This document shows, in pieces, positions 4,842 to 59,188 of a stretch of 64,000 nucleotides of DNA. The notes below the pieces were generated by a model. It saw only the letters and a program-made list of their open reading frames with translations, was not told the origin of the DNA and did no database searches. Origin of the DNA: Polytrichum commune. Its lineage: Eukaryota; Streptophyta; Polytrichopsida; Polytrichales; Polytrichaceae. The stretch spans positions 7,626,001 through 7,690,000 of the forward strand of contig OX485804.1 in the NCBI GenBank assembly GCA_950295325.1. Reading direction: 5' to 3'. Position numbers and translations under genes: made by a program. Position 1 is the stretch's first letter. The number at the start of each line of letters is the position of its first letter.

Positions 4842-5128
4842 ACCAACATGTTATTTCTTTTAAAATAAATAAGAAGATAATGTTACCTACTTATTTACCT
4901 TAATTTGGATGTATTATAGAGGTGGAACATTTTCAACTAAATTATTGTCATGAAAGAAGTTCTAAAAGATTGCCATATACTTTTTTTTTATCAATATAAT
5001 TTTTATAAATATCAATACAATGGTCATTTAGGGGGTAAGGTTTCTATTATGGCCGGCTTTGGCCGTTTTGTGAAGTAGTCCAGTGGACTTCTCCTCTTGG
5101 TGAAGTTGTCCAATACACTTCTCCTATA

Positions 5129-15650: not shown

Positions 15651-15654
15651 AAAT

Positions 15655-16600
15655 TTCCTTCCACTTATGAGCTCAAGAACAAGAACCCCAAAGCTATAAA
15701 CATCAATCTTTTTTACTTATATGACCCATTTGAAATATACTCATGCGCTAAATGGTTTACAAACTTTGGAAGATTAAAATGGCTTGGTAAGTCTATTGGA
15801 AGCATGTTATGTTTAAGATCAACAAATGCTCCCCAAAAAAAAAAAAAAAAAAAAAAACCATAAAATTTAATGCGTGTGTAATTACTGTGTGCCAACAATG
15901 TGCATTGTCATCATGTGAGTTTATTCATTTGGAAACAACAACACCAAACCAAAATTTGCCCTCCATGCTTCTAAATTTTTGTCCAACAAAATATTGCCTG
16001 CTTTGGCATGTCCATGAATGATTGTTAGTTTGACCAAAGCATGTAGATAATGATGGCCTTGGGCTACTCCTTGAGAGATAGATAGATAGAAACTCCGGTC
16101 CCTTTTAGGGGCCGGCGTGAATGGAGTGTCCGTTCGTAATGCCAACAACCCGATGCCCAAACTCCTTGAGAGATGTTTAGTGTATATGCCAAGTCACTAA
16201 TAAACCACCTTCGTGCCCTGCCTTTAGAATTAAAAGGACAAAGATTCATACACAAGCCATAAATTGCTAAAATTCCACCAACGTCAAATAAGTCTCAATG
16301 GTTGCTAGATTGCATCATTATTTGAGAGATCACTATGACATCATAATCCTAGTATTAACATAAAATAAAGCTACATTAGGGACAAAATTGTACCAAAAAG
16401 GGTTTGAACAAAACCATTGTTTTCAATGTACTCATCCACCCAAAGCATTTAATTTGATGTCCATGTAAACAACAACCTTGTAATTTCACAAGATTTTGGT
16501 GTTTTACGTTTCTAAGAAGGATTACTTCATTCAAAAAAAAAAATTCAAATTTTTGATGGGATTTGAGGAAGAGTAGTTTCATGGTTACTTGGCTCCCGCT
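15655..16600 (-). pseudogene. Receptor-like protein kinase pseudogene, copy A
   Basis: Minus-strand fragments of a plant receptor-like kinase catalytic domain lie in N-to-C order from high to low coordinates. These are FLNEVILLRNVKHQNLVKLQ then GCCLHGHQ (about 16,460-16,540; N-lobe helix C and strands 4-5), ISQGVAQG then HYLHALV then IIHGHAKAGNILLDKNLEA (about 15,950-16,075; catalytic loop), and DVYSFGVLVLELIS (about 15,665-15,705; subdomain IX). The family's catalytic-loop Asp is changed (HGHAKAGN where copy B reads HGDVKARN), the frames are broken, a poly(A) run interrupts the activation segment near 15,834-15,857, and an 81-bp retro-insert sits in the catalytic loop. Clearly dead. The same wreck in copy B shows the decay began before the duplication. 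Confidence 0.8.
16080..16160 (-). mobile_element. 81-bp truncated retro-insert (LINE 3' tail)
   Basis: Bounded by exact 14-bp direct repeats ACTCCTTGAGAGAT (16,066-16,079 and 16,161-16,174). Copy B has no such insert at its matching site (about 49,292). Read on the minus strand it begins GGGCATCGGG, runs through AACGGACACTCCATTCACG, forms a stem CGG/CCCCTAAAAGGG/CCG, and ends in TTTCTATCTATCTATC. The same order of blocks occurs at the 3' end of the non-LTR retrotransposon at 61.83-61.90 kb. A long target duplication and a simple tail fit target-primed reverse transcription of a heavily 5'-truncated copy, or a very short SINE borrowing that tail. Confidence 0.7.
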
Positions 16601-16849
16601 ATCAAGACAACCTTGAAATTGTCAAAAACAAATGTAACATGAAACTTGTCAAAAGTTAACAAAGAATTTAATGAAATGCAACCTTCAATCCCTTGCACAA
16701 AATGCTCGAGGTGCATTGGAATGCTATGTGCATCCAAAGTCTTGTAGCACATAGTGCACATCATGTTGTTGGATCTTTGGTCTACACCTTTGAAGGTGAT
16801 ATTTCTAGTGGATTGACATCTATCCTCATTTCAAAGATTAATATATCTA

Positions 16850-18034
16850 GGGAATTGTTAAAACCACCACGCCTTTTGTTAATGCCACCACGCTCGTGAT
16901 TTGTAGTCACGTCATTTAGGATTTTACGCGCGATGTCCGAGTATCTTAAATTAAACTAATCTCTTGGCGGGCCGGACGAGGGCTGCTATATGAACCATTT
17001 ATGACGGGGGAAGATCTTTAATATATGCGGGCCGGTTCTAGGGGGGCGGACATTGGTGGGGCTCACTTATGCCGTTGGCCTCATGTCTGATTTCGGGGAG
17101 CCCACCATTAGGTTCTTGTTGGGCTAGGCGGGCTCGGTGGCTCGGTTTGTTTAGGGTCACACACTTGATTAGGCACATCTACCCTACCGGATTGCAAAAT
17201 GTGTTGCATGTTAAGGATGGGTGGCACAAATAGATGCCCCTATGTGACCACAATGGACGAAGGGGTTTGTTACCTTATGTGATATTTTCCTTGTTTTAAC
17301 TTAAAGAATATTCATTTTAATAAGGAATAGAATATTCATATGAGCTCCTCAAATTATAAGGGAAGTGGCTACAAGCACAAATTGGATTTGCTAATCATCT
17401 CGCACTAATTGCATGTTCGGCATTCTAGTATCCTATTACAAGAAGTGGGTGCAGAAAGAAAATGTCCGTTTAAGACCCGGTTACCTTACAATGTTGGGCG
17501 AAGTTGGAAGTGCCCACATTGCTTTCAAGTTGTAAACCATGTGTGAGTACATAATAGAATTGACTCAACCTTAGTCACCCTTTGCCACTAAGCAAGTAAG
17601 ACTAACGAACTACTTATTAGTAGTAAGTAGGCCTAAGCAACTAGTTATTAAGTAGTAAGTAGGCTTAAGCAACTAGTTATTTAGTAATAAGTAGGCCTAG
17701 AAAGGAATTATACTTAATTGCCTAATCTGCCTAGCCACGTAGCCACCGAGCCCGCCTAGCCCAACAAGAGCCTAAAGGTGGGCTCCCCGAAATAAGACAT
17801 CAGGCCGACGGCATAAGTGAGCCCCACCAATGTCCACCCCCCTAGAACCGGTCCTCGTATAGTAAAGATCTTCCCCCCGCCATAAATGGTTCATATAACG
17901 GCCCTCGTCCGGCCCGCCAAGAGATTAGTTTAATTTAAGATACTCCGACATCGCGCGTAAAATCCCAAATGACGTGACTACAAATCACGAGCGTGGTGGC
18001 ATTAACAAAAGGCGTGGTGGTTTTAACAATTCCC
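16850..18034. mobile_element. Foldback transposon with ~270-bp inverted arms
   Basis: A 1,185-bp element with termini GGGAATTGTTAAAACC in perfect inverted orientation and arms that stay complementary for roughly 270-290 bases (to about 17,150 on the left and from about 17,735 on the right). It is flanked by 8-bp direct repeats TATATCTA (16,842-16,849 and 18,035-18,042); copy B retains the single uninterrupted TATATCTA site near 49,966-49,973. The loop holds tandem TAGTAAGTAGGCCTAAGCAACTAGTTAT variants (17,600-17,700, units of about 40 bases). No open frame of note. Related in layout and core to 40,074-40,730. Confidence 0.85.
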
Positions 18035-18042
18035 TATATCTA

Positions 18043-19684
18043 AACACAATTGTCGTGCATACATAACATTACTCAACTAATGAGTTATATTCAAAGGCTT
18101 TATTCTTGAATCTACCACATGGCCCATCAACACAACTCATCAAATGTGTATTATTATGTAACATGTCAACACATATCTTTAGGTGGGTGGGCCACATACG
18201 GTAATTCTAGGAGTATAATCACAACATCTTGCAAGTTTTCACCCTCCACACTACAATGTCCACCTAATGATGTAGGAAGACCCTTGCTATACCAAGTAAT
18301 GTTGTGTGTGATCAGGACTTGTCATCATGTTTGAAGAGGGGAAGGGAGGGGTAAAATACGATTTTGGTTCTCTAAAGGGAGAACATTGACCACTCGAATT
18401 GAACCACATTACCGTGCCAAGTCAACTTTAAACTAGGTACACAAAATATGAAATTTAGTGGTTGCTTATGCATTGGCCTCATGAGTCAAAATCCGTTTAA
18501 ATGTTTAGGTTGACACCTTGTTGGTTAGACATATGCGGTCAATCCCATGTTGACCAAAGTAGAAAGGAAAAAGAAAAAGAAAAGGAATGTCAATCTCCTT
18601 CTAAATTTAAATGAATTTATTAATTTTTACAGTAACATGCAATATGCGTTTGCCATCTCCTATCCATGGCCATATGGTCAAGGGGGGGGGGGGGCAACAC
18701 GATGGCTTAGTTCCTATTCTCATTGGATAGTGGGTGAGTGTTAGTTATATGTCATATGAATGTTAGTAATTTTTAGTCACATTTGACCCGGGCTTGCTTA
18801 TTTTTTGATTTTCTTTTGTTTAGTATGATATGTGTTAGATATCTTATGGCTATTTGTTGGATTACATGATGCTCAATGTCCCACTCAACCATCATTTTTG
18901 TTATGACAACCTTGAACCTTATGGAGGAGATGTGCACCCACATTAGAGAGTTGTCATTAACACCTCCAACGACATTCATTCTCTTTCTATATAGGACATT
19001 TGGTCAACATGAAATAATATGACTTTACTTGATTCTCCCATTACACAAATTGTTTCAAAATAATAAATTTGAAAGTTCATGGCAAAAAAATAAACATCGA
19101 TGCATGTAAATGTATGACAAAATAAAGTCAACAGAGACAAAAGAGGTGAAACTACATCATAGCCTACCTCACCCGATTTCAGGTCTGGATTGAAATCTTG
19201 AGTAGCTCTTTGAAAGTCATTGTAACTGAATAGTGTTGGTTTGAGATTAGATGCGGCAAACTTTACACATGATCAACTTCCAAATAATGCAATACAATAA
19301 TTACATTTTACCCAGTTCTTTGCTTGAGTCGTCATTGACTAGGCATCCATTCACAGATGTTCTGGTCACCTACTAAGAACATTCCAATATCATTGCTAAA
19401 AATGAAATTGTCTCCATGAAATTGTCTCCTTGGAGCACAAGAGTCAATTATAACCCCAAGGTTATAATTATCTTAGTATATACAGAGTTAATATTTTCAA
19501 TTATAATCAACTCTGTATATTATTATCATTAATATGTGATGAACTATAGTACTGCAACTTTCAAGACAATGATTGAAACCAGTACAGGATATTTGCATAC
19601 TATGTAAAAGTAAGGATTCAAGGATAGATATTCAAGCTGGTTTGGACGGCTTTGGACACTTTGTTTTGGGCTCTCGCAATTACA
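18043..19684. other. Non-coding stretch of copy A
   Basis: About 18,100-18,690 is absent from copy B. The rest aligns with about 50,033-50,880. A run of 13 G at 18,682-18,694 sits next to the border of the missing block. The minus-strand open frame at 18,773-18,979 is conserved in copy B (50,105-50,311) but resembles nothing I know and may be chance. Confidence 0.35.
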
Positions 19685-19686
19685 TG

Positions 19687-19723
19687 GTCACGGCACTTGG
19701 CTAGTGTATGAAGTGGCCCAAAG
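19687..19723. mobile_element. Tourist-like MITE end fragment
   Basis: GGTCACGGCACTTGGCTAG then TGTATGAAGTGGCCC closely match the right end of the element at 34,588-36,686 (GGTCACGGCTCTTGGCTCA then TGTGTGAAGTGGCCC). Only the end is left; copy B keeps just CACGGCTCT at this place, so the rest was lost there. Confidence 0.45.
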
Positions 19724-20129
19724 TTACAGAAGCGTGCCACCTAGAGGGTGGGGCAATTCGTTGTGTAAGAGGTTTGACACACTCACTGGTGATTGGCCAA
19801 AAGGCTGAAATCGTCCCAACCCCTTTACACCTTGAGGCAGGGATGATTGGGTGGTATGAATTTTCTAATAAAAAAAATGCATGGTATGTCACAGTTCGAG
19901 CTCATTGAATTAGGTGCACCCAAACTGGAAGGCCAATTCTTGGCCTCGGGACCAATACCAAATTTCAATAAAAACAAAACCTTTTATAATAAAATATGAT
20001 TTTTTAAGCAAACCATATCCATTGGATTATGTGGAAATATGAATGGCTCTATTGTAGATTATGCTAGATCCGTTGCATTATACTAGATTTATTGAATCAA
20101 CCTAGCTTCTTGGCCCTAAGGCCTTTACA

Positions 20130-20263
20130 TATGGGAAAATTGCCCCCCCCTATAATCTTATCATAATGTGTAGTTGAGGCCGGCCTCCAACCCAAAAGAG
20201 GCTGAAATTTCATGCAATCGGCCTCGAGGGGAATTGGCCCAGCCTCTCGGTGTAAAGCGGCCC
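20130..20263. mobile_element. Tourist-like MITE right part, copy A
   Basis: Ends GGTGTAAAGCGGCCC followed by TCA; copy B has the canonical TTA after the same terminus (51,098). The interior is rich in GGCCGGCCTC and GAGGC. The left terminus could not be placed. It lies just upstream of the region that is also found at 32.3 and 39.2 kb. Confidence 0.4.
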
Positions 20264-20264
20264 T

Positions 20265-21378
20265 CAGTAGCCATGTGGTCACACATGGAGTGACGCAGTC
20301 AGTCTTTGTTTGTTGTGTGGTTCTGTGTTTTGGGATGTGCCACAAGTTGTGGTTGAAGACTTTGTCATTACCTTCAAACCCTGATGCCTCAACTCTCCGC
20401 GTTCAAGGACGGTACTGAACTATTTTCAGGATAACATCTATAATAAACTGAACTGAACTGAACCAGGTACTGAACTGGTGCAGAAGTGCCGCGTGTCGAT
20501 GGGCCATTCTTTTGTTGACAGGGCCCACTTTGAGCACATTTTGGACCTTGGATTCTCCCCCAACTTATTAGGTACTGTACCCCGCAAATAATTGAAGCAA
20601 GACTTCTGTGCATTGGCCCCCTCGCAGACATTTTGAAGGCGGCGACCATGATTCCAGCTACGCTGATGAATGCATGTCCGTACGATGGTGGAGCATCCAT
20701 CCTCTGGACAATCTGCTCTTGATTGAAAAAAAATAAAAGAACCATGTGCACGGACGGCACAATACACTACTCGACATGAACTTGGAAGTTGCATGATGTT
20801 GGTGCTGCCCAACTGCTACCTCAATGTTCTGAATATGATATACCGCACACCGTTTATTTTCATTCAGAATCCATGCCGTATTGTAGAGCTTCAGGAACTC
20901 CGGTGCAACCACGGTTCCGTTGACGACGGACAACCTTCCGAATCCGTGGAGTTTAGATGGGACTGGGGATTTCTAGGCGGCCTCGTGCAGTGCCTCGTTG
21001 GGAGCGTGTGCCCTTCAACCTATTCTATGCGAGAGCTTTTCCGTGGTACATATATTAAAGAGAGAGGAAATTGCACTGAGCAGTGGGATTGTAAGAATCG
21101 GAGAACTTGAGCGAGAAATATTTTTAGCTCACTCTTGCCACGATCCATGTATGAAGACCTACGTACAGCGCAGTTGTAGACGGGAACTGTTGTGCTGGTG
21201 GATGGGGAGCGTGCATCCTCTAATTTCTTCCTCCAAACTTCGGAGTGGAGAGAACATGCGTGGGACTCGTAGGAACTAGTCTGCGAAGGGAAACTTTTGG
21301 GGCGTTCTCAGAAGTGCACTAGTTTTGTAGCACACACTAATATTGTTATCGTTGTTGCAAAACACCGACACAAGAGTC
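20265..21378 (+). promoter_or_regulatory. Upstream region of ROCO-A
   Basis: This block is conserved ahead of both ROCO genes (copy B: about 51,100-51,370 and 52,856-53,583). Parts also occur without a ROCO gene at 39,170-39,720 and 32,290-32,378. It has no convincing open frame, and an in-frame stop (21,328) lies upstream of the start codon, so promoter plus 5' untranslated region is likely. A short direct repeat GGTACTGAAC...GGTACTGAACTGG (20,409-20,480) is present here and collapsed in copy B. No specific promoter element can be assigned. Confidence 0.45.
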
Positions 21379-22939
21379 ATGATGCAGTGGTGGATTGCTT
21401 TCATTTCTCTGTTGGTGAGAGTTGTGGTTTGGTTGAAGTCGCACTTCCGTTCAATTTTATGGAAGCCCCAACGTGAGGATACCAGCTGTGTGCTTGGACA
21501 GGCGGGCGGCTCAGCACCGCATCATGGTGAGGACCAGCTTGTTGAGGGCACGGTGGTTGTGGATGCTTTGGATTCCACATCATGGTGGTCACATGATGCA
21601 CCGGATTTTGGTCTGGACCCGATTCTCTCTGCGATCTCCCGGAATGAGCAACTGCGGTTCGGCGTTACTTATAAATCTTCCGGCGAAGTTGATGCGTCTA
21701 GCCCTGAGGATCCCGATGTATGGAGGAAGACTATTGTGAAAAGGGTTTCCAAAGATCGGAATTTGTGCATGGACATCACCCGACATTCCGTAGCCTCTCA
21801 ATCCGGGGTCGTCCTCATCTTGATGGAAAATTTCTGTGTGGAGGAAGAAATTGCAGTTATGTTCATGGAAGAGTTTGCGAATGCCATGCGCTCCAACCCA
21901 AGGATTGAAATGGTACGTATTTTTGCTGTTTTCTTCGGAGATACAGATAGGACACTCGTAACACGCTTCATAACACTTGTAATGAACATGATTGGAGTGA
22001 TCCTGGAAAACCCTAGCTTGCGAAATGTTGAACTGCGTAATACTGCTGGAAAAGGCGTACTTCCGCTCGACCGAGCTGCAATCGAAAGCTTAGTATCCGC
22101 TCTCCGAAGGAATTTGACCCTGACCGGTTTTAGCATTTACAACAGAGGGGGGGTTTTTTTTGACACGGAGGGGCTCAAATTGTTCCTTGAACCCCTCATG
22201 ATAGGTGGGGAAGGCTCTTACCAAGGTTTAAAAACTCTCACTCTGGACTGCACTGGAATCAACGATGAAAGGGCAGAGGTAGTAGCATCCATGTTGCGGC
22301 ACAACACTTCTCTTACATGCATAGATCTCAGCGGTAACAAAATTGGGCCTCAAGGTGCGGCGCCCATTGCAGAGGCACTACGCTCCAATACTACGCTTCG
22401 ACAACTAGACATAGATTACAATCCCATCGGTGCAGCGGGACTGAAGGCATTGGTTGCATCTTTGACACACAACATGGCCAACGGTGACCTTCAACCCAAT
22501 TCATCTCTTACACATCTTGGTATGGCGGGTGACTTCGGGGTAGAGGACATGGAGCTCTTGGAGATCCTCGTACGCCAAAATACTTCCTTGTTGAGGTTGG
22601 ATTTGACCAACTCAAGGTTATTGGAAGTTGCAGATAATGTGATCCGACTGCTAGAGACCCTCAAAAGCAACAAGTGCTTGGAGGACGTCATGTTACGGGG
22701 TTGTGGCGGAGTGGTTGGGCGGAGGGTGTTGGGGACAATATTCGATCTACTAGATGTGAATCATCATCTTAAAGAGCTCGATCTGCGGCGTACACCGTTG
22801 GCAGAAGATGGAGGGGCGGGGATGGTGGAGGCGGTGCTGGAGCAGAAGGCCAAGCACAACATGTGGGAGGTGTTGCAGGCCATGGCCACTACCAGACCCA
22901 ATTCCGCCAGAATCTTCCTATGTGGCTACCCCTTTGCAG
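21379..22939 (+). CDS. ROCO-A exon 1 (N-terminus, LRRs, first half of P-loop)
   Basis: Encodes residues 1-520 plus one base. LRR units are readable as LKTLTLDCTGINDERAE, LTCIDLSGNKIGPQGAAPIA, LRQLDIDYNPIGAAGLKAL, LLRLDLTNSRLL, LEDVMLRGCGGVVGRR and LKELDLRRTPLAEDGGAG, spaced about 28-45 residues apart, typical of ribonuclease-inhibitor-like repeats. The exon ends FLCGYPFA plus one base of the next Gly codon, so the intron splits the nucleotide-binding loop (phase 1). The donor is GTGAGC. From 22,801 onward the exon is identical to copy B, while upstream it is clearly diverged with several in-frame indels. Confidence 0.85.
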
Positions 22940-25900
22940 GTGAGCCCATGGACCCAATTTCAGGAAGCAAAACTCCTTGTCCTTCTCTTTTCAGGCTAAA
23001 AACAACTTTGAGAAACTTTTGTGCTTTATTATTTGTGAGTTCGATTCCATTTGAGTAGTACACAAGTGTGAGCGGCGCAAGAAGGGCCTAGACAAGACAC
23101 GTGCATATTTGATTCGGCAAAATATTGATAATAATATTAGCTATATCGAGATGAAACACATGGGCGTCTAAATCTCAAAGAAGTCCTCTTAAGATTGGGT
23201 TCCTATACTCAAAAAAAGGGACAAATTAGAAGATTTTGACCCCACTTCAACCCCATACTTTTACAAACAACTCTAATATTCGTTCGATGTTGGTCAGATT
23301 GCTTGTCTTTCAGGTATTTGAAGTAACTTCTTAGGCTTGGTTAATCTATGATGTATCATTCTTGCCACTTAGGGGATGCTTAAGTACTTTGGAGTAGTTG
23401 AATTGGAATGATCTTTAGTACTTACACTAGTACACTTTCAATCACAAATCGGAGCCTCATGTAGAGTAATATATGCATATCAACAGTACATATGGATTTT
23501 TCCAAACAAATGTAATTGACGAAAACTCTCCAATTTGACGCCAATTAATTTTGAACTCTGAAGTTGAACCTGTGGAAAATGGTTAGATGACCATAACCCA
23601 CAATAAATGATGGGGAATGGTCCACATGCAAATTGTTTCATGGACAATTCTCAACCTAGACAAATTGATCATTTTATTTTCTAGTAAAAATAAACCGAAC
23701 ATATATTTCAATGGTGTTTCTAAATTACGGGTTCTTCAATGCCAAAGTGTTGCCATGTCTTTTGGTATCGGAAGTTTACTTCAAATGTTAGATTTTTTCT
23801 CAATTTTTGCAAACCTATATCAAACTTGAGCATGTTAGGTTCATGCCATGATAGTCATGTGTATTTGTGTGATTCTTGAGCAGGCAAGACAACTCTTTCT
23901 CAAACCATAACGAAAGCAGTCAAACCCTCGGACCATAATGCAATACACTCTAAGCATAGAAAGCAATGGACATTTACAAGTTTACTATCAGGCATGCTCC
24001 GCAAGGGCGAGTCAAACAATGATCCAAAAGAAATGACACCACGAACGCGGGGCATTGAAGTACATGGTATGTCATTTGATGACATCATGGTCACCATTTG
24101 GGATATGGCAGGTCAAGATGATTATCATTCTTTCCATGACCTTGTGATTCCAAACCTTACCGGCAACTCCGGGAGTTCATGTTCTTTTTTACTTGTGTGC
24201 AATCCACTCCAACTCGGAACGCGTCGCCTCAAGAGTGTCCAAGTAATTGCAGATGAATTGTTATATTGGTTGCGGTTCATTGCCTCAAATTCAAGAATAT
24301 CAACAGCCTATAAGCCACATGTGATCATTGTATTGACAAACCTTGACATGGTATGTCCCGACTATGAAAGCCTCAATCTACCAAGAATCAAGGATAAGGT
24401 TGAATGGCTCAGAAACCTCTTCAAAGATATTCTTGAGATTGATTTACAAGTGTTTCCAGTCAACGCCTTGTCAATTGACTCCATCAATGTTTTGCTCCAA
24501 ACAATGAAGGCGCACTTGAAATTCCTATTGGGAAGATTGCCACATGTTTTTGAGGCTTGTTCAAGGATGCAAGTTCTTATTGCCAACTGGAACCGTGAGC
24601 ACCCCAACCAACCTCTTGTGCGGTGGAACGAGTTTTCTAAGTTGTGTGACAATGTGGAAGAGTTGAAATCTCTCGAGGGGCTTGGACCGGAGGTTGTGAA
24701 AAGGAAAAAAGAAGTTGTGGCAATTTCTTTACACGACAGCGGACACTTGATGTACAATGAAGAGCTTGATTTTGTGGTCTTGAACCCTCATTGGTTTTGT
24801 CATGATATCATCGGACGTGTGTTGAAATGCAAAGGGCTTGATAACTTGGATGGAATCACAAATGGTACCATGACCAAAATTGATTTCAAGCATGTTGTGA
24901 ATGCCTCCCTCCAACCGAACCTACAAGGGTTTAGTTTTGATGATTTGTTGCAAATGATGATAAAGTTGGAGTTTTGTTATGAGCATGATGACGATAAGGT
25001 GTTGATCCCTGCCTTGCTCAAAGATGACAACGATCAAGCATGTTTGGGGAAACGACAATTGCAATGGCCTTCGCAAGAGAAGCATTCAAATTGGCAGTAT
25101 GTGGGTCGGAGAATATTATGTGACGATAAAGTTCGAACCGTCCTCACTCTTGGGTTTTTCCCACGATTGCAGGTACAAAATTTAAACCATATCAACAGCT
25201 AGTGGTGAGCATGAGAACCTTACAATGCATTTATTGGTTATGAACATGTGAGCATCACAATTATGTAAGAAATAAACTATAATTAGTAAATTTCTTTTTT
25301 GGTATATTTCATGTCATTGGATTTCCCCTTGTTGTACACTATGTACACATGAAGGAATCAACGGAAGTATAATTCTTCATTGTCATGTCTTTTGTTTTGG
25401 GGTTCTTCTCATGTATATAGAGTATACGAGATTCTCATGATGTAAATTGTTTTGCGCTCAAGCAAAAATAGTACCACAAAATAATCTTTTGGAAAATATT
25501 TTAGAACCTTCGTTGTTTATCATTGTGCTAAGAAGTAATGCATTTACAAATCAAAGAGAGCGACGTTTAATGAAATTCTCTTTCATCGCAGGTGGTATTT
25601 CAAAAGCTTTTTGGAAAAGACAATGGTAAAAATAGCTACAAGCTCGCCAAGAATGTGATATCATTCTACATGAGCGGGATGGAAGTCATCGTGGAGAGTA
25701 GTGGTCAAATCGGTTTTTACATTGATATCATGGTGCGCTCTGCAAGGACCGACAAAGATGTTATGTTGGAGTTCTTACATACACATGTTATGAAACATAT
25801 CTATGACCTTTGTGCTCATCCTGTTTTGGGTTGCCAAGGAGTGAAACTTGTTGAGGGAATTTTACGTCCCACATGTGTGGAACGTTTGATTCCACGGATC

Positions 25901-26992
25901 CACAGGGAAGATCAAGTTGTTTTGGTTGAGGATCTCCAATCTATTGTTTTGGCAACTTGCGATTTTTCTTATGAGCACAATTGGAAAGAAGAGGGTCCGT
26001 TGGAAGGAGGTCATGATTATGCACAAACATTGTTGGGCAAGAAGGCATGGGAGATAATACTAAATAGACATCTCCGAGACTTGCAAAAGCTACAAAAGGT
26101 GCTCCCTTGTGACACGAAACATGAAGAGTTGATGCTTACACAACCGCAATGGATTGATGATTGTGATGATCATACATGTGAAGTGAGGATTGTAGATGTG
26201 CAAAAATTGGTTCAACGAGTGGGACGAAGATTGTATCACAAGATAGAAGAGATTGAAACCAACATTGTGAAGAGGGTGGATGACATGGAGAGCCGAATAT
26301 CCATAAAATTGAACCATATCATTTCTATGGAGAAAGACATGCTACCAAAGATATGTGAGAATATTGACAAGTTGATGACATTCTCAGTGGAATTGCAACA
26401 ATCTCAAGTGCCACGACTTGTGTACTTCACCACAACTCCCAAGAACAATTTGAAATGTATTGTGACACGCATGGTGCCTGGCCTTACCAATTTGAAAATG
26501 CACTTCATGTGTGAACATCGTGGAGGATTTCACATTGTGAATGATCAAAAAGGTTGTGATGTAACATTTGGCACAGAAGCAACAAGAGTGTTTCAAACGA
26601 TTTTGGTGTGGGGATTGAGAATATTCACTATATTGGCAAAAGTTGGTGCACATTTGACGGCCGGTATGGGAACAATGATTCCAGATCTAGCAAAGGATTT
26701 CATGTTGGTCGTTGATACGCCAAGCTTACTCGATGGTTGGGAATTACCTTATGTTGATGAAACGCTTGACCATAAACTTCAAAGATTAACAATCACGGAT
26801 GACGATAAACGTACAACTGAACAATGGTTGATTGATTTTTTGAAGGGAAAAAACTTGTATGGTTCTTTTTCTTTGCGAAAGGCTATGTACAAAAATAATA
26901 TTGGAGGATGTCATGGAACCATTGCATGGCTTTGTAGTGACCACATACAGGAAGGTGAAGATGAGTCTTCGTTAGTTTTGCTTCCTTGCTAG
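21379..26992 (+). CDS. LRR-Roc-COR (ROCO) GTPase, TORNADO1-like, three exons
   Basis: Exons 21,379-22,939, 23,884-25,172 and 25,592-26,992 join in frame to 1,416 residues, close to Arabidopsis TORNADO1 (about 1,380). The start is the first ATG after an in-frame TAG at 21,328; ATG ATG gives MMQWWIAFISLL. Order: a hydrophobic N-terminal stretch (residues 5-20, possible membrane anchor); ribonuclease-inhibitor-type leucine-rich repeats (about 230-480); a Roc Ras-like GTPase with P-loop GYPFAGKT (516-523), switch II WDMAGQ (593-598) and base-binding TNLD (672-675); a COR domain (about 690-950) with the HDSGHLMYN and VVLNPHWF landmarks; a coiled-coil-prone segment (about 1,163-1,212); and a C-terminal region of unknown fold. 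ROCO proteins are GTPases that dimerise through COR. TORNADO1 acts in plant patterning, but that role is only a family analogy here. Both introns are GT..AG. Confidence 0.85.
22940..23883 (+). other. ROCO-A intron 1, inside the P-loop
   Basis: 944 bases, GTGAGC...TTGAGCAG, phase 1. Removing it joins GYPFA to GKTTLSQT and completes the GxxxxGKT nucleotide-binding motif, which is strong support for the splice sites. It looks identical in sequence and length to copy B (55,135-56,078), unlike intron 2. Confidence 0.85.
23884..25172 (+). CDS. ROCO-A exon 2 (Roc GTPase and COR)
   Basis: Starts GC AAG ACA ACT (rest of Gly, then KTT). Carries the remainder of Roc, with IWDMAGQDDYHSFHDLVIPN and IVLTNLDMV, and the COR domain, with KEVVAISLHDSGHLMYNEEL and FVVLNPHWFCHDIIGRVL. 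The exon ends LGFFPRLQ in phase 0 with donor GTACAA; reading on without splicing meets a stop after NLNHINS. Against copy B (offset 32,195, no indels) the first coding difference is at 24,354, and only a handful of substitutions follow. Confidence 0.85.
25173..25591 (+). other. ROCO-A intron 2
   Basis: 419 bases, GTACAA...TTTCATCGCAG, phase 0. It joins GFFPRLQ to VVFQKLFG. Unlike intron 1 it shows many substitutions and one net indel against copy B (57,368-57,787, 420 bases). Confidence 0.8.
25592..26992 (+). CDS. ROCO-A exon 3 (C-terminal region)
   Basis: 466 codons plus TAG (residues 951-1,416). The first part (YKLAKNVISFY, MEVIVESSGQIGFYIDIMVR) looks like the continuation of a ROCO C-terminal domain. 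Then follow a charged, coiled-coil-prone stretch (RLYHKIEEIETNIVKRVDDM), the block VPRLVYFTTTP...PGLTNLKMHFMCEHRGGFH, and a hydrophobic segment (VWGLRIFTILAKVGAHLTAG). Function of this part is unknown to me. Differences from copy B cluster at about 26,225-26,450 and 26,600-26,720. Confidence 0.75.
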   Translation: MVFQKLFGKDNGKNSYKLAKNVISFYMSGMEVIVESSGQIGFYIDIMVRSARTDKDVMLEFLHTHVMKHIYDLCAHPVLGCQGVKLVEGILRPTCVERLIPRIHREDQVVLVEDLQSIVLATCDFSYEHNWKEEGPLEGGHDYAQTLLGKKAWEIILNRHLRDLQKLQKVLPCDTKHEELMLTQPQWIDDCDDHTCEVRIVDVQKLVQRVGRRLYHKIEEIETNIVKRVDDMESRISIKLNHIISMEKDMLPKICENIDKLMTFSVELQQSQVPRLVYFTTTPKNNLKCIVTRMVPGLTNLKMHFMCEHRGGFHIVNDQKGCDVTFGTEATRVFQTILVWGLRIFTILAKVGAHLTAGMGTMIPDLAKDFMLVVDTPSLLDGWELPYVDETLDHKLQRLTITDDDKRTTEQWLIDFLKGKNLYGSFSLRKAMYKNNIGGCHGTIAWLCSDHIQEGEDESSLVLLPC

Positions 26993-27615
26993 TACACAAT
27001 TTGAAGACACAAAACTAGTGATTTCCAAACTGTAGAAAGTGAATCACATATGCACATGTGATCCAACCAAGGTTTAGGCCGTGAATGTAGAAAAGTTTTG
27101 TGCATGACAAATACTCGACAAGCCAACGTATGTTCATTTTATTTCAAAGGTCATAGCATGCCAATTTGGTTCAAATTCGTTACCTGTAAGCTTGATTTCA
27201 TCACTCAATTTGTTGGCTTGTGAGGTGGTCAAATGTTCACATTTCACTTAGAAGGTTAAATTATGGGTTGTTGGTTACATGTGTTTCCAAGGGAGATTTT
27301 TTGTGTGAAGCCTTTAAGGCATGTTTAAGTTGAAAATCTACACAAATGACTTGTCCAAAATTTGGGCATGACTATCCAAATACATCCTTTTAGTAGTGTA
27401 TCTTTTTAGGCATTCAAGGTGTTCAGGTTCAATAAAAAAACATGTGACGTCCCTTGGTCTATTGAATTGTTGAAGAAAAATCACAGTGGTCGCGATCAAT
27501 GTGACATGATCCAATGTAGTTGTAATTTAATTGCTCATGTTTCCAGCATGAGTGCAACTCATACGAAATATAATATGTGCAAATCCGAGTACAAACCATC
27601 CATGTAGCATCCATA

Positions 27616-34840: not shown

Positions 34841-35159
34841 ATGATTTTTTTAATATTTTTTCCAGCAGGACAGATTTCAGGACAGATTGCATGGCAAATT
34901 CCAGGATAGATTCCAAGATAGATTCCATGATAGATTCCAGGACACAGTCCGGGGAGTTTTATACAAAAATCGGTACATTTCCGATCTTTTATAAAGACAT
35001 TCGGATTTTTATTTTTTTGCTCGGAAGCTACCTAAATCCAATTTTTATTCTCGGTTAAAAACCGATATTTAAATTTACCATTCGGTAATTTTCCGACTTT
35101 CTGAATTTCATTTCGGTATGTTTCCGAAGATTTGTATTGTATGTCGGATTTGTTTTCTT

Positions 35160-35300
35160 AAATATTGTAAAACAAAATTGGTGTTATGCTTTTAAAGGGG
35201 TGAATTTTGTTGATAGAAAATCCAAGTATCCTTGGAAGGATTTGAACTTTGCCAAGCCCCCACCAACTTGGGGCCAAGGATTTAGCCTTTAAAAAATATA
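35160..35300 (-). other. tRNA-like (SINE-type) pol III promoter block inside the element
   Basis: On the minus strand TTGGCCCCAAGTTGGTGGGGG resembles an A box (TGGCNNAGTNGG), and GTTCAAATCC (35,238-35,247) is a perfect match to the B box (GWTCRANNC), about 30 bases downstream. CCTTGG and CCAAGG flank the block and could pair. This is what a tRNA-derived SINE head looks like. It does not fold as a complete tRNA and no SINE tail or target duplication was found, so it may be captured sequence. The same block is at 51,596-51,736. Confidence 0.4.
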
Positions 35301-35730
35301 TACTGGATTTGTTCGAAGGAGACACAAAAAACATACAATACAATTTCGACTCTCAAGCCGCATAAGGAAGACCAACAACAAGTGTCACATTGAAATTTCA
35401 GAAATAGTTTCTACCTTGTCAAAACAAGGTGCTCCGGGTGTACACGAAGGAAGGCACCAAATAGTTGCGGCTGAGAGAAACTTCATCCCACGCTTTGTAC
35501 TTAACAGCGCCATGCACAAGACGGAGAAGAAAAGCTCTATATTTCACGGCGCCATGCACAAAATTCCAGTGTGATGTCACTGTGAAGTATCAAAATCGTT
35601 GTGAGAGATTCGAGAGATCCAGGAGACAAGCATTGGTTCCGCACAAGTTTGTTTCCTACTCTTCAAGACTTATCTACAGGATTTCAAGAGATTCACGACC
35701 TCCAAAATAGATGTCTCCGAGTGGATCGCA

Positions 35731-35930
35731 GTGGATCGCCGCACCGAACTGGACCTTCACCCTGGACCTCCGAAACATATGTCACCAACTGGATCGTAGG
35801 TGGATCGCCGCACCGAACTGGACCTCCGAAACATATGTCTCCAACTAGATCGCAGGTGGATCGCCGCACCGAACAGGACCTCCGAAACATATGTCCCCAA
35901 CTAGATCGCAGGCGGATCGCCGCAGGTGGA
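35731..35930 (+). repeat. 56-bp minisatellite, about 3.6 units
   Basis: Units start GTGGATCGCCGCACCGAACT at 35,731, 35,800, 35,856 and (shortened, GCGG) 35,912. The last two intervals are 56 bases; the first is 69 because of an extra TTCACCCTGGACC block. Each unit continues TCCGAAACATATGTC and CAACTAGATCGCAG. Repeated exactly in the second copy of the element (52,167-52,366). Confidence 0.8.
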
Positions 35931-36689
35931 TGCAGAAACAAATAGAAGCGGAAGAGCAGTAGCGAAAGAGCACAGAGAGAAATCCCAATAGAGGAGTGAG
36001 AGGAGTGAGATACTTTGCCCAAGGGACTCAAACTCCTTATACTCGTGAGAGAGGGTCCTTGGGTGCTTAGAGCCTCAAAACCCTAATCGGCCCAGTGAAC
36101 GGAACCAACCCTAAATTAATTAGCCTCCATGGTTCTTGACTTTATGAGTCATGACTCTAGTATTACCCTAGTAGAAATTTCCGCCCTATCCCTAGTCCCT
36201 TCGGCTACTTGCCTAAAATTTAAAAATTGGCTCGGTAAATATCCTAAAATATGATGCCTCAACCGGCTATATTGCCGATCTTTTCTCATTTGAACCGGTC
36301 AATTTCCGACCTTAACAATTTTAAGTCGGTACCTCGTCCGAATCATTGCGAATTCATTCGGAAATCTCCAAAAAATTTCGGCTAGCTCGTAACCAAAGTT
36401 CGGTACTCCCCGTTCATTGTTCCAGGACAGACAAACACCACCAAGTAGTTATCTTAAATTGATAAACTTGGAGACATATTAAATTAAACCAAATCCTCCC
36501 CTCTTTTTCCGCCAACAAAATATGCAATGGTCCCGCAACATGGTTCATTCTCACTTCACACTATGCTTGAGGGCCAAAGACTACATAAAATGGCTTTCCC
36601 AACACCCATGGTACGGCCTTTGGATGAGAGTCAAGGGTCCTCACCATTACAAGGTCACGGCTCTTGGCTCATGTGTGAAGTGGCCCTAA

Positions 36690-51378: not shown

Positions 51379-52855
51379 CACAGTCCGGGGAGTTTTATAC
51401 AAAAATCGGTACATTTCCGATCTTTTATAAAGACATTCGGATTTTTATTTTTTTGCTCGGAAGCTACCTAAATCCAATTTTTATTCTCGGTTAAAAACCG
51501 ATATTTAAATTTACCATTCGGTAATTTTCCGACTTTCTGAATTTCATTTCGGTATGTTTCCGAAGATTTGTATTGTATGTCGGATTTGTTTTCTTAAATA
51601 TTGTAAAACAAAATTGGTGTTATGCTTTTAAAGGGGTGAATTTTGTTGATAGAAAATCCAAGTATCCTTGGAAGGATTTGAACTTTGCCAAGCCCCCACC
51701 AACTTGGGGCCAAGGATTTAGCCTTTAAAAAATATATACTGGATTTGTTCGAAGGAGACACAAAAAACATACAATACAATTTCGACTCTCAAGCCGCATA
51801 AGGAAGACCAACAACAAGTGTCACATTGAAATTTCAGAAATAGTTTCTACCTTGTCAAAACAAGGTGCTCCGGGTGTACACGAAGGAAGGCACCAAATAG
51901 TTGCGGCTGAGAGAAACTTCATCCCACGCTTTGTACTTAACAGCGCCATGCACAAGACGGAGAAGAAAAGCTCTATATTTCACGGCGCCATGCACAAAAT
52001 TCCAGTGTGATGTCACTGTGAAGTATCAAAATCGTTGTGAGAGATTCGAGAGATCCAGGAGACAAGCATTGGTTCCGCACAAGTTTGTTTCCTACTCTTC
52101 AAGACTTATCTACAGGATTTCAAGAGATTCACGACCTCCAAAATAGATGTCTCCGAGTGGATCGCAGTGGATCGCCGCACCGAACTGGACCTTCACCCTG
52201 GACCTCCGAAACATATGTCACCAACTGGATCGTAGGTGGATCGCCGCACCGAACTGGACCTCCGAAACATATGTCTCCAACTAGATCGCAGGTGGATCGC
52301 CGCACCGAACAGGACCTCCGAAACATATGTCCCCAACTAGATCGCAGGCGGATCGCCGCAGGTGGATGCAGAAACAAATAGAAGCGGAAGAGCAGTAGCG
52401 AAAGAGCACAGAGAGAAATCCCAATAGAGGAGTGAGAGGAGTGAGATACTTTGCCCAAGGGACTCAAACTCCTTATACTCGTGAGAGAGGGTCCTTGGGT
52501 GCTTAGAGCCTCAAAACCCTAATCGGCCCAGTGAACGGAACCAACCCTAAATTAATTAGCCTCCATGGTTCTTGACTTTATGAGTCATGACTCTAGTATT
52601 ACCCTAGTAGAAATTTCCGCCCTATCCCTAGTCCCTTCGGCTACTTGCCTAAAATTTAAAAATTGGCTCGGTAAATATCCTAAAATATGATGCCTCAACC
52701 GGCTATATTGCCGATCTTTTCTCATTTGAACCGGTCAATTTCCGACCTTAACAATTTTAAGTCGGTACCTCGTCCGAATCATTGCGAATTCATTCGGAAA
52801 TCTCCAAAAAATTTCGGCTAGCTCGTAACCAAAGTTCGGTACTCCCCGTTCATTG
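51379..52855. mobile_element. 1,477-bp hAT-like non-autonomous element, copy 2
   Basis: Identical by eye, with no indels, to 34,943-36,419 (constant offset 16,436), but flanked by a different 8-bp direct repeat, CTTCGATG (51,371-51,378 and 52,856-52,863). The matching site in copy A (near 20,667-20,690, GATGAATG...TACGATGGTGGAGC) lacks it. It sits about 0.73 kb upstream of the ROCO-B start codon and splits the conserved upstream region. Carries the same tRNA-like block (about 51,596-51,736) and 56-bp repeat (52,167-52,366). Confidence 0.85.
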
Positions 52856-53583: not shown

Positions 53584-56500
53584 ATGATGCAGTGGTGGAT
53601 TGCTTTCATTTCTCTGTTGGTGAGGGTTGCGGTTTGGTTGAAGTTGTACTTCCGTTCAATTTTATGGAAGCCCCAACTTGAGGATACCGGGTATGTGCTT
53701 GGACAGGCGGGCGGCTCAGTACCGCATCATGGTGAGGACCAGCTTATTCAGGGCACGGTGGTTGTGGATGCTTTGGATTCCACATCATGGAGGTCACATG
53801 ATGCACTGGATTTTGGTCTGGACCCGATTCTCTCTGCGATCTCCCCGGATGAGGCACTGCAGTTCGACGTTTCTTATAAATCTTCCGGCGAAGTTGATGC
53901 GTCTATTGTATCCCGATGTATTAAGAATCCCGATGTATGGAAGACTATTGTGAAAAGTACTCCCAAAGATCGGAATTTGTGCATCGACATCACCCGACAT
54001 CCCGGAGCCTCTCAATCCGGGGTCTTTCTCAACTTCCTGGGAAATTTCTGTGTGGAGGAAAAAATTGCAGTTATGTTCATGGAAGAGCTTGCGAATGCCA
54101 TACGCTCCAACCCAAAGATTGAAAGGGTACATAGTTATACTAATTTCTTCAGAGATACAGTTAGCACAGTCATAATGAACATGATTGTGGTGATCCTGGA
54201 AAACCCTGGCTTGCAAGATGTTGACCTGCTTCATTGTGGAAAAGGCTTACTTCCACTCGACCGAGCTGCAATCGAAAGCTTAGTATCCGCTCTCCGAAGG
54301 AATTTGACCCTTACCCGTTTTAGCATTGACAACGGAGGATGGGGGGATTCTTTTGACACGAGGGGCTAAAATTGTTCCTTGAACCCCTCATGATAGGTGG
54401 GGAAGGGTCCTACCAAGGTTTTAAAACTCTGTATCTGAGCCGCACTGGAATCAACGATGAAAGAGCAGAGGTAGTTGCATCCATGTTGCGGCACAACACT
54501 TCCCTTACATGCATACGTGTCACGGGTAACGAAATCGGGCCTCAAGGTGCGGCGCGCATTGCAGAGGCACTACGCTCCAATACTACGCTTCGACAACTGG
54601 ACATAAGTTACAACTCCAATATCGGTACAGCGGGACTGAAGGCACTGGTTGCATCTTTGACACACAACATGGCCAACGGTGACCTTCAACCCAATTCGTC
54701 TCTTACACATCTTTCTATGGGGGGCAACTTATGGACAGAGCACATGGAGTTCTTGGAGACCCTCGTACGACAAAATACGTCCTTGGTGAGGTTGGATTTG
54801 TGCTCCTCAAGCTTATTGCGAGTTGCAGATAACGTGATCCGCCTGCTAGAGGCCCTCAAAACCAACAAGTGCTTGGAGGACGTCTCCTTAATGGGTTGTG
54901 GCGGAGTGGTTGGGCGGAGGGTGCTGAGGACAATATTCGATCTACTCGCAGTGAATCATCATCATAAAAAGCTCGATCTAGAGGCTACATCTCTAGCAGA
55001 AGATGGAGGGGCGGGGATGGTGGAGGCGGTGCTGGAGCAGAAGGCCAAGCACAACATGTGGGAGGTGTTGCAGGCCATGGCCACTACCAGACCCAATTCC
55101 GCCAGAATCTTCCTATGTGGCTACCCCTTTGCAGGTGAGCCCATGGACCCAATTTCAGGAAGCAAAACTCCTTGTCCTTCTCTTTTCAGGCTAAAAACAA
55201 CTTTGAGAAACTTTTGTGCTTTATTATTTGTGAGTTCGATTCCATTTGAGTAGTACACAAGTGTGAGCGGCGCAAGAAGGGCCTAGACAAGACACGTGCA
55301 TATTTGATTCGGCAAAATATTGATAATAATATTAGCTATATCGAGATGAAACACATGGGCGTCTAAATCTCAAAGAAGTCCTCTTAAGATTGGGTTCCTA
55401 TACTCAAAAAAAGGGACAAATTAGAAGATTTTGACCCCACTTCAACCCCATACTTTTACAAACAACTCTAATATTCGTTCGATGTTGGTCAGATTGCTTG
55501 TCTTTCAGGTATTTGAAGTAACTTCTTAGGCTTGGTTAATCTATGATGTATCATTCTTGCCACTTAGGGGATGCTTAAGTACTTTGGAGTAGTTGAATTG
55601 GAATGATCTTTAGTACTTACACTAGTACACTTTCAATCACAAATCGGAGCCTCATGTAGAGTAATATATGCATATCAACAGTACATATGGATTTTTCCAA
55701 ACAAATGTAATTGACGAAAACTCTCCAATTTGACGCCAATTAATTTTGAACTCTGAAGTTGAACCTGTGGAAAATGGTTAGATGACCATAACCCACAATA
55801 AATGATGGGGAATGGTCCACATGCAAATTGTTTCATGGACAATTCTCAACCTAGACAAATTGATCATTTTATTTTCTAGTAAAAATAAACCGAACATATA
55901 TTTCAATGGTGTTTCTAAATTACGGGTTCTTCAATGCCAAAGTGTTGCCATGTCTTTTGGTATCGGAAGTTTACTTCAAATGTTAGATTTTTTCTCAATT
56001 TTTGCAAACCTATATCAAACTTGAGCATGTTAGGTTCATGCCATGATAGTCATGTGTATTTGTGTGATTCTTGAGCAGGCAAGACAACTCTTTCTCAAAC
56101 CATAACGAAAGCAGTCAAACCCTCGGACCATAATGCAATACACTCTAAGCATAGAAAGCAATGGACATTTACAAGTTTACTATCAGGCATGCTCCGCAAG
56201 GGCGAGTCAAACAATGATCCAAAAGAAATGACACCACGAACGCGGGGCATTGAAGTACATGGTATGTCATTTGATGACATCATGGTCACCATTTGGGATA
56301 TGGCAGGTCAAGATGATTATCATTCTTTCCATGACCTTGTGATTCCAAACCTTACCGGCAACTCCGGGAGTTCATGTTCTTTTTTACTTGTGTGCAATCC
56401 ACTCCAACTCGGAACGCGTCGCCTCAAGAGTGTCCAAGTAATTGCAGATGAATTGTTATATTGGTTGCGGTTCATTGCCTCAAATTCAAGAATATCAACA

Positions 56501-59188
56501 GCCTATAAGCCACATGTGATCATTGTATTGACAAACCTTGACATGGTAGGTCCCGACTATGAAAGTTTCAATCTACCAAGAATCAAGGATAAGGTTGAAT
56601 GGCTCAGAAACCTCTTCAAAGATATTCTTGAGATTGATTTACAAGTGTTTCCAGTCAACGAATTGTCAATTGACTCCATCAATGTTTTGCTCCAAACAAT
56701 GAAGGCGCACTTGAAATTCCTATTGGGAAGATTGCCACATGTTTTTGAGGCTTGTTCAAGGATGCAAGTTCTTATTGCCAACTGGAACCGTGAGCACCCC
56801 AACCAACCTCTTGTGCGGTGGAACGAGTTTTCTAAGTTGTGTGACAATGTGGAAGAGTTGAAATCTCTCGAGGGGCTTGGACCGGAGGTTGTGAAAAGGA
56901 AAAAAGAAGTTGTGGCAATTTCTTTACACGACAGCGGACACTTGATGTACAATGAAGAGCTTGATTTTGTGGTCTTGAACCCTCATTGGTTTTGTCATGA
57001 TATCATCGGACGTGTGTTGAAATGCAAAGGGCTTGATAACTTGGATGGAATCACAAATGGTACCATGACCAAAATTGATTTCAAGCATGTTGTGAATGCC
57101 TCCCTCCAACCGAACCTACAAGGGTTTAGTTTTGATGATTTGTTGCAAATGATGATAAAGTTGGAGTTTTGTTATGAGCATGATGACGATAAGGTGTTGA
57201 TCCCTACCTTACTCAAAGATGACAACGATCAAGCTTGCTTGGGGAAACGACAATTGCAATGGCCTTCGCAAGAGAAGCATTCAAACTGGCAATATGTGGG
57301 TCGGAGAATATTATGTGACGATAAAGTTCGAACCGTCCTCACTCTTGGGTTTTTCCCACGATTACAGGTACAAAATTTAAACCATATCAACGGCTAGTGG
57401 TGAGCATGAGAACCTTACAATGCATTTATTGGTTACGAACATGTGAGCATCACAATTACGTAAAAAAAAAACTATAATTGATAAATTTCCTTCATGATAT
57501 ATTTCATGTCATTGGATTTCCCCTTGTTGTACATTATGTAGTCATGAAGGAAGCAACGGAAGTGTAATTCTTCATTGTGATAATTTTTTGTTTTGGGGTT
57601 TTTCTCATGTATATAGAGTATACGAGATTCTCATGATGTACATTGTTTTGCGGTCAAGCAAAAATAGTACCACAAAACAATCTTTTGGAAAGAATTTTAG
57701 AACCTTCATTGTTTATCATTGTGTTAAAAAGTAATGCATTTACAAATCAAAGAGAGCGACGTTTAATGAAATTCTCTTTCATCGCAGGTGGTATTTCAAA
57801 AGCTTTTTGGAAAAGACAATGGTAAAAATAGCTACAAGCTCGCCAAGAATGTGATATCATTCTACATGAACGGGATGGAAGTCATCGTGGAGAGTAGTGG
57901 TCAAATCGGTTTTTACATTGATATCATGGTGCGCTCTGCAAGGACCGACAAAGATGTTATGTTGGAGTTCTTACATACACATGTTATGAAACATATCTAT
58001 GACCTTTGTGCTCATCCTGTTTTGGGTTGCCAAGGAGTGAAACTTGTTGAGGGAATTTTACGTCCCACATGTGTGGAACGTTTGATTCCACGGATCCACA
58101 GGGAAGATCAAGTTGTTTTGGTTGAGGATCTCCAATCTATTGTTTTGGCAACTTGCGATTTTTCTTATGAGCACAATTGGAAAGAAGAGGGTCCGTTGGA
58201 AGGAGGTCATGATTATGCACAAACATTGTTGGGCAAGAAGGCATGGGAGATAATACTAAATAGACATCTCCGAGACTTGCAAAAGCTACAAAAGGTGCTC
58301 CCTTGTGACACGAAACATGAAGAGTTGATGCTTACACAACCGCAATGGATTGATGATTGTGATGATCATACATGTGAAGTGAGGATTGTAGATGTGCAAA
58401 AATTGGTTCAACGAGTGGGACAAAGATTGTATCACAAGATAGAAGAGATTGAAACCAACATTGTGAAGAGGGTGGATGACATGGAGAGCCGCATAACCAA
58501 AATATTGAACCACATCATTTCCATGCAGGAATACATGCTACCAAAGATATGTGAGAATATTGACAAGTTGATGACATTCTCGGTGGAATTGCAACAATCT
58601 GAAGTGCCACGACTTGTGTACTTCACCACAACTCCCAAGAAGAGTTTGAAATGTATTGTGACACACATGGTGCCTGGCCTTACCAATTTGAAAATGCATT
58701 TCATGTGTGAACATCGTGGAGGGTTTCACATTGTGAATGATCAAAAAGGTTGTGATGTGACATTCGGCACAGAGGCAACAAGAGTGTTTCAAACGATTTT
58801 GTTGTGGGGATTGAGGATATTCATTATATTGGCAAAAGTTGGTGCACATTTGATGGCCGGTATGGGAACAATGATTCCGGATCTAGCAAAGGATTTCATG
58901 TTGGTCGTTGATACGCCAGGTTTACTCGATGGTTGGGAATTACCTTATGTTGATGAAACGCTTGACCATAAACTTCAAAGATTAACAATCACGGATGATG
59001 ATAAACGTACAACTGAACAATGGTTGATTGATTTTTTGAAGGGAAAAAACTTGTATGGTTCTTTTTCTTTGCGAAAGGCTATGTACAAAAATAATATTGG
59101 AGGATGTCATGGAACCATTGCATGGCTTTGTAGTGACCACATAAAGGAAGGTGAAGATGAGTCTTCGTTAGTTTTGCTTCCTTGCTAG
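53584..59188 (+). pseudogene. ROCO-B: LRR-Roc-COR gene with exon-1 frameshift
   Basis: Same structure as ROCO-A: exon 1 53,584-55,134, exon 2 56,079-57,367, exon 3 57,788-59,188, with all four splice sites conserved. Exon 1 breaks at about 54,358-54,366, where copy A reads GACACGGAGGGGCTC and this copy GACACGAGGGGCTAA. A single base is lost and a TAA follows (54,367-54,369), after about 261 residues and at the start of the LRRs. Downstream of the break the LRRs, P-loop GYPFAGKT, WDMAGQ, TNLD (now TNLDMVG), COR and C-terminal region are all open. Other indels against copy A are multiples of three. So it is either a very young pseudogene, an assembly error at one base, or expressed from an internal start. 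Confidence 0.8.

Follow-up and report, generated by a model that had tools for sequence, protein, structure and literature searches.

Very probable recent gene conversion between two neighbouring ROCO genes of a tandem array

Introduction

Resistance-gene clusters are a well-known setting for gene conversion between tandem leucine-rich repeat (LRR) genes. We analyze here a block of complete identity shared by two predicted LRR-Roc-COR (ROCO) genes, named copies A and B, which lie 32 kb apart on the same contig in a 64,000-nucleotide stretch of Polytrichum commune DNA (contig OX485804.1, here C2, positions 7,626,001 to 7,690,000 of the forward strand). This whole stretch is called the window, and positions in A and B are those of the window. 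We conclude that the block very probably arose by very recent non-crossover ectopic gene conversion between A and B, within a tandem array of at least six LRR-Roc-COR genes.

The closest described systems are cited here from parts of the respective articles. In the Arabidopsis NBS-LRR family RPP8, the LRR makes up 20.7% of the length and holds 40% of the shared polymorphisms, and its likeness to the present genes is that paralogous LRR genes exchange sequence without crossover (PMC6771003). It differs in that the layout here is LRR-Roc-COR, with no NB-ARC domain among the Pfam matches of copy A to E 0.1, and in that a single genome is considered. The LRR-ROCO genes of brown algae, which have been proposed as immune receptors, likewise form an expanded family with diversified LRRs; there, however, each LRR has its own exon and the exons are shuffled (PMC11378527), whereas the present genes carry their LRRs in a single exon of 1.56 kb, which appears to change through substitutions, small indels and patchy conversion. 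An LRR-ROCO gene has also been reported from Chara braunii (PMC11378527), while a 2014 review, in the parts used here, names only flowering plants among the green groups as carrying ROCO genes and does not name mosses (PMC4104024). By domain layout, the present genes can be likened to TORNADO1 (TRN1), in which RI-like LRRs are followed by Roc-COR (PMC4104024), but about 17 loci were found here against the one or two ROCO genes per plant cited in PMC11378527. No such ROCO family in mosses or land plants was described in the literature among the matches listed, subscription papers aside, and a ROCO family this large in such a plant is unusual.

Results

Copies A and B share an identical tract between diverged flanks

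In a global alignment of 20571-27614 with 52850-59810, copy A 22801-24353 equaled copy B 54996-56548 with 0 differences over 1,553 bp, as a previous sequence-only reading had claimed, except that the end in copy B is 56548 and not 56549. The tract is bounded by the substitutions A22800/B54995 on the left and A24354/B56549 on the right, and comprises the final 139 bp of exon 1, the entire 944-bp intron 1 and the initial 470 bp of exon 2; the GT-AG intron (22940-23883) lies wholly inside it, which had also been read correctly. Its left edge is abrupt, with 9 differences within the 16 preceding bases, and none of the about 135 synonymous sites inside it is changed between A and B. The gene model of copy A has three exons joined by GT-AG introns and encodes 1,416 amino acids (aa). 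The tract and the two genes are laid out as follows.

22801..24353, + strand: identical tract, copy A side (exon 1 end, intron 1, exon 2 start); from the alignment, permutation P 0.0005
54996..56548, + strand: identical tract, copy B side; from the alignment to copy A
21379..22939, + strand: copy A exon 1, N-terminal part and LRRs, ending in the P-loop (GYPFAG/KT split); open frame, GT donor at 22940, PF13516 LRR_6
22940..23883, + strand: copy A intron 1, 944 bp, phase 1, splitting the P-loop; GT-AG, with length and splice sites the same in copy B
23884..25172, + strand: copy A exon 2, carrying the remainder of the Roc GTPase and COR-A; PF16095 above its cut-off, PF08477 below
25592..26992, + strand: copy A exon 3, encoding the C-terminal part, with the stop codon at 26990-26992; open frame
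53584..55134, + strand: copy B exon 1 (LRR), with an apparent one-base frameshift near 54359; from the alignment to copy A
56079..57367, + strand: copy B exon 2 (Roc-COR); open frame
57788..59188, + strand: copy B exon 3; open frame

Outside the tract, the A/B differences were unevenly spread, and the tract stands as an island of identity within diverged flanks. The 5′ flank differed at 35/696 sites (5.0%) and the 3′ flank at 20/577 (3.5%). Exon 1 upstream of the tract differed at 148/1,394 sites (10.6%), with six in-frame indels and one 1-base indel, and intron 2 up to 25532 at 28/360 (7.8%), with a 1-base indel; the diverged LRR exon with in-frame indels and the altered intron 2 of the sequence-only reading were thereby recovered. 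In exon 2 the divergence was 0.8% (5 differences) at 24354-25010 and 4.3% in the remainder to the exon end, and in exon 3 it was 0.2% (25592-26225), 4.8% (26226-26803) and 0.5% (26804 to the end). The noncoding divergence excluding the tract was 83/1,692 (4.9%), a rate from which about 46 differences would be expected in intron 1, where 0 were seen (Poisson P about 1e-20). A homologous upstream region (13142-20570 and 46109-51357; 4,820 aligned bp) was 6.0% different, with identical runs of at most 166 bp. The three longest A/B identical runs of the gene region measured 1,553, 551 and 543 bp.

These values bear on the possibility that B is a recent whole duplicate of A, with flanks that were later replaced or evolve fast. 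A and B are neighbours, and B is the closest one-piece match to A over the gene region (95.1%, with 93.6% for copy D and 93.2% for copy E of the same array, and 90.0% and 96.1% for copy C in two large pieces). However, the divergences of the 5′ flank, intron 2 and the 3′ flank are within the range of other pairs, the upstream region, compared for A and B only, is diverged as well, and a single identical island would need many replacements. A whole recent duplication from A to B was rejected on the ground that the A/B flanks are as diverged as those of other pairs, and its probability is practically nil.

Near-identity also occurs past the tract. A two-state segmentation of the A/B comparison gave 0.16% difference in the low-difference stretches and 7.4% in the rest, and two stretches stand out downstream.

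24354..25010, + strand: low-difference stretch 3′ of the tract, 5 A/B differences; from the A/B and five-copy alignments
25533..26225, + strand: second A/B tract of low difference, matching B 57729-58421 with 1 difference over 693 bp; matched run 25747-26220

The second tract contains 0 A-only and 0 B-only two-state sites, and its run at 25747-26220 had a global P of 0.0005. Within exon 2, 24701-25010 is nearly uniform across A, B, C and D (0-0.6%). The A/B pair is a mosaic with patchy near-identity past the tract, and not one block. The five A/B differences right after the tract include two adjacent double substitutions (24354, 24371-24372, 24466-24467). Since A and B keep distinct flanks on both sides of the tract, with B-specific insertions, a simple crossover does not account for it.

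The identity is absent from the other copies

Inside the tract, A equals B while C, D and E differ from A/B by 2-8%. Outside both A/B tracts, the A-B distance was the smallest of A's four distances (to B, C, D and E) in 4/14 segments, namely 22201-22500, 24701-25010, 25173-25532 and 26804-26992. Among A to E, the two-state sites in the tract were distributed as 0 A-only, 0 B-only, 27 AB, 29 C, 31 D and 22 E, and those in the 5′ flank together with the part of exon 1 upstream of the tract included 47 A, 59 B and 5 AB (Fisher P 3e-17 versus the tract). The AB class carries as many changes as a single lineage would, and A and B behave within the tract as if they were one lineage.

The tract was further evaluated by permutation with our own GENECONV-type script (2,000 permutations, giving a P floor of 0.0005; columns with a gap or a non-ACGT letter in any row were dropped). 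Of the 741 polymorphic sites among A to E, 140 in a row matched between A and B (global P 0.0005), the noncoding-only test likewise gave a global P of 0.0005, and in a nine-copy test the A/B tract ranked first (P 0.001, the lowest value attainable with 1,000 permutations). Other significant runs were found for A-C, B-C and D-E near 26200-26300 in the five-copy test, and for B-H at 24252-24454, G-H, C-D and others in the nine-copy test, indicating that exchange extends beyond A and B. Segment trees contained an A to E clade in 5/5 segments, with an unresolved internal fan for 20683-21800 and 21801-22800, and the exon 3 tree, in which the second A/B tract lies, joined A and B (100/99).

Purifying selection acting on the block and on a regulatory element within its intron would be in keeping with the ratio of nonsynonymous to synonymous divergence (dN/dS) in exon 2, which was about 0.1-0.6 in the 12 pairs computed. 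Against this, intron 1 of A differs from C, D and E at 52-64 of about 940 sites (5.5-6.8%) and its two halves differ from G, H and I by 10-16%, and the tract lacks A/B differences at synonymous sites as well. Intron constraint was rejected on the intron 1 differences of C, D and E, and selection as the cause of the identity is vanishingly improbable. In intron 1, part 22960-23280 has 20 weak matches (68-75%) genome-wide, as from an old dispersed repeat; their divergence is much too high to account for the A/B identity.

The diverged flanks, the A to E fan before the tract, the zero A-only and B-only changes inside it and the permutation test all agree with the recent gene conversion claimed by the sequence-only reading, and we infer conversion as the molecular route. 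In this process, break repair or meiotic recombination would have used one copy as template, and 1,553 bp of the other copy, including the intron that splits the P-loop, would have been overwritten, while each copy would have retained its own LRR exon, intron 2 and flanks. The second tract, about 25533-26225, would have come about through exchange of this kind too, either separately or as one of its patches. The event would be very young, as the 95% upper bound of the tract divergence is about 0.19%, versus about 6% between A and C, D and E in intron 1. The direction is weakly indicated as A to B: in the 100 bases left of the tract, A differs from E at 3/100 and B at 14/100, while the left end of the tract differs from E at 2/100, and since A and the tract end are both E-like there and B is not, A is favoured as the donor.

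Several points weigh against this interpretation, or against its simplest form. The right edge is direction-neutral, as A versus C (1/100) and B versus H (0/100) both equal the tract end. The patchiness beyond 24353 could reflect several events, and the 24354-25172 tree joins A with C (84/85) and not with B. The permutation test assumes exchangeable sites, and exon sites evolve unevenly, although the noncoding-only test agrees. Finally, the A/B identity is read from the assembled sequence alone, in which a consensus or polishing error could copy one gene onto the other.

Such an assembly or polishing artefact, with the reads of one copy used for both, would fit the perfection of the A/B identity, and the other array copies, being 90-95% alike, could attract stray reads. 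However, the window lies on a chromosome-size contig (C2, 70.3 Mb) of a genome of 408 Mb in 64 contigs and contains no N, the left edge of the tract is abrupt, and C, D and E retain their 2-8% differences across the same stretch. Moreover, a pair of identical 1,477-bp transposons in the window was placed twice, with two different 8-bp target-site duplications.

51379..52855, + strand: hAT-like non-autonomous transposon upstream of copy B, 100% identical to 34943-36419; target-site duplication CTTCGATG
34943..36419, + strand: second hAT-like copy, between A and B; target-site duplication TTCCAGGA

As the two members carry separate target-site duplications, the assembly resolved repeats of such size. 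The artefact is thus considered very unlikely, and gene conversion between A and B is retained.

Predicted structure of the ROCO genes

The layout of the genes is predicted to be LRR-Roc-COR followed by a C-terminal part. In a Pfam profile search, copy A matched the N-terminal LRRs (PF13516 LRR_6, E 1e-13) and COR-A (PF16095, 36.5 bits with a cut-off of 35.3), the latter lying above the cut-off in 6/7 genomic matches, whereas the Roc profile PF08477 scored 19.2 bits, beneath its 27-bit cut-off. Three weak PDB matches comprised two GTPase chains and 4wnr, a 'Leucine-rich-repeat protein'. The spliced copy A peptide carries GYPFAGKT and WDMAGQ, which we take to be the P-loop and switch II, respectively. 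The C-terminal part gave a weak HSBP1 match beneath the cut-off. In copy B, the LRR exon reads one base short compared with A near 54359, so that a straight reading meets a stop at codon 262.

Paralogs and arrays in the genome

The genome has four matches above the cut-off to the LEAFY SAM family PF01698, which is not known outside the green plant line, against none in the 14 control genomes of the search, and the DNA-binding part next to the best match is closest to PDB 4bhk ('FLORICAULA/LEAFY HOMOLOG 1', from the moss Physcomitrium) among 5 sequences matched; this points to a land plant, probably a bryophyte. With the tract as a DNA query, 38 genome matches were obtained. They placed A and B in a C2 tandem array of at least six copies, continuing downstream with C, D, E and F (94, 95, 95 and 90% identical to the tract, respectively). 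Six matches fell at four further loci (C2 5.62 Mb, C3 28.69 Mb, C2 10.17 Mb and C1 64.77 Mb), and the weaker ones comprised six at C3 41.3-41.5 Mb and the 20 to the intron 1 part only. An exon 2 protein search gave 22 matches, read as 17 gene loci plus a short fragment (C2 67.8 Mb), several protein matches being pieces of one locus. Of the 17 loci, the C2 array accounts for six and C3 41.29-41.52 Mb for another six; the others are two elsewhere on C2, one at C3 28.7 Mb, one on C1 and one on C5, the last used solely in the tblastn/blastn comparison and the protein alignment.

Ten loci were named A to J, of which J lay outside the DNA alignment, leaving nine aligned copies. By the present gene model, A, D and E among these have full-length open frames, and B, C, F, G, H and I each show a frameshift, stop, insertion or altered start. 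In copy H, the first ATG is altered and the frame shifts within the first 34 codons, the three exons being open otherwise. An LRR exon in the array dating back to the split from F, G, H and I was considered and rejected, since A to E are still grouped (99/99) in the 21801-22800 tree. In four windows across 22100-22899, distances within the array nevertheless reached 0.67-0.83 of those to G, H and I.

The six loci at C3 41.29-41.52 Mb form a second tandem array of ROCO genes whose exon 2 is about 38% identical to that of A; the P-loop intron, read in one copy, sits at the same position as in copy A. Two of the unlinked loci, L013 (C2 5.62 Mb) and L014 (C3 28.69 Mb), differ by 12-16% in most of exon 1 and by 0-3% in exon 3 and beyond, a pattern that may reflect exchange between unlinked loci.

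The LRR exon and the GTPase switch

The sequence-only reading had further proposed that the start of Roc is homogenised while the LRR half diverges, and this stood in part. In its favour, 24701-25010 is nearly uniform from A to D, and divergence in the second array drops likewise; against it, C, D and E differ by 2-8% in the tract. Among A to E, exon 1 before the tract differs by 6-16% and exon 2 by 0-6%, while the 5′ flank and the introns outside the A/B tract differ by about 4-9%. Judged against these flanks and introns, the LRR exon is the outlier, and the Roc start does not stand out as specially homogenised.

Nonsynonymous (dN) and synonymous (dS) divergence was calculated for 12 of the 36 possible pairs of the nine copies, after removal of codons containing a gap or a stop. 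Upstream of the tract in exon 1, dN was 0.08-0.15 and dS 0.10-0.16, with a ratio of about 0.7-1.3, and in exons 2 and 3 dN was below dS in 12/12 pairs. Within 21379-22200, dN exceeded dS at an uncorrected one-sided P < 0.05 in 5/12 pairs, which share copies, and at the same threshold in 0/12 pairs for 22201-22800 and 0/12 for the whole of exon 1 before the tract. This pattern could stem from relaxed selection as well as from diversifying selection, and is no proof of the latter.

In the second array, the mean divergence was 9-15% in windows 2800-3599 (exon 1, by alignment to A) and 4-7% in windows 3600-5199 (from the final part of exon 1 through intron 1 into the beginning of exon 2). A run test on five of its six copies, omitting copy b, in which part of the 3′ region is missing, listed 15 runs. 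Five of these were significant, all of them short; intron 1 and exon 1 each hold one, and there was no long identical tract comparable to that of A/B. The contrast between the LRR exon and the switch recurs in the second array, and the long identical tract does not.

As an addition to gene conversion, conversions in Roc might be kept selectively, to share the switch, while those in the LRR are lost, receptor diversity being favoured. Such selected homogenisation would accord with the 6-16% of exon 1, where dN is close to dS, and the 0-6% of exon 2, where dN is low, with the location of the long A/B runs in the tract and exons 2 and 3, the two significant exon 1 runs being about 50 and 105 bp, and with the similar drop at the exon 1/intron 1 border of the second array. 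It is opposed by the failure of C, D and E to be homogenised with A/B inside the tract, by the ordinary divergence of the 5′ flank and intron 1, by the easier detection of long runs at low divergence, and by the dN excess being limited to the 5/12 non-independent pairs in 21379-22200. We therefore regard it as possible, without favouring it. Under conversion in general, we infer that repeated exchange would keep the switch part alike, with dN staying close to dS in the evolving LRR exon.

Transposons and repeats in the window

The hAT-like elements have imperfect terminal repeats, and the one at 51379-52855 ends 729 bp before the copy B ATG. The hAT label is our assumption from the 8-bp target-site rule, and no transposase was seen in the element. 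In a search that scored 40 of 418 candidates, the family was found on all seven large contigs, with the other pieces 79-97% alike among the 77 matches listed. Because these other pieces are at most 97% alike, the identical pair suggests a recent local hop; a further conversion tract was rejected in view of the two separate target-site duplications. A second type of element lies on the 3′ side of copy B.

59768-61705: Tc1/mariner-type element, with terminal repeats CTCCCTCCGTTTCATATCAAAAGTTACGTTT and a TA target site

Its transposase open reading frame (60064-61023) matched DUF7769, with HTH_Tnp_Tc3_2 just beneath the cut-off. An inverted repeat was also observed at 16848-17142/17741-18036, with arms of about 296 bp that are 94.6% alike and 599 bp apart; the corresponding stretch upstream of copy B continues without the 16848-18036 inverted repeat.

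Discussion

The gene conversion found here is a fresh case of a known process, and the ROCO arrays in this plant are less expected. The tract provides an unusually clean conversion record, showing no later change in 1,553 bp, with a paralog family that fixes the background. If the plant is a bryophyte, and as such mostly haploid, the tract would be a natural marker for conversion rates in a plant of this kind.

The ROCO family here is a candidate for receptor-type evolution. A broader hypothesis, which we consider rather unlikely at present, is that the two tandem ROCO arrays evolve like resistance-gene clusters, with the switch homogenised by conversion and the LRR sensor diversifying, and that their products serve as pathogen- or self-recognition receptors. 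If true, these would be recognition receptors of a kind without a known description in land plants.

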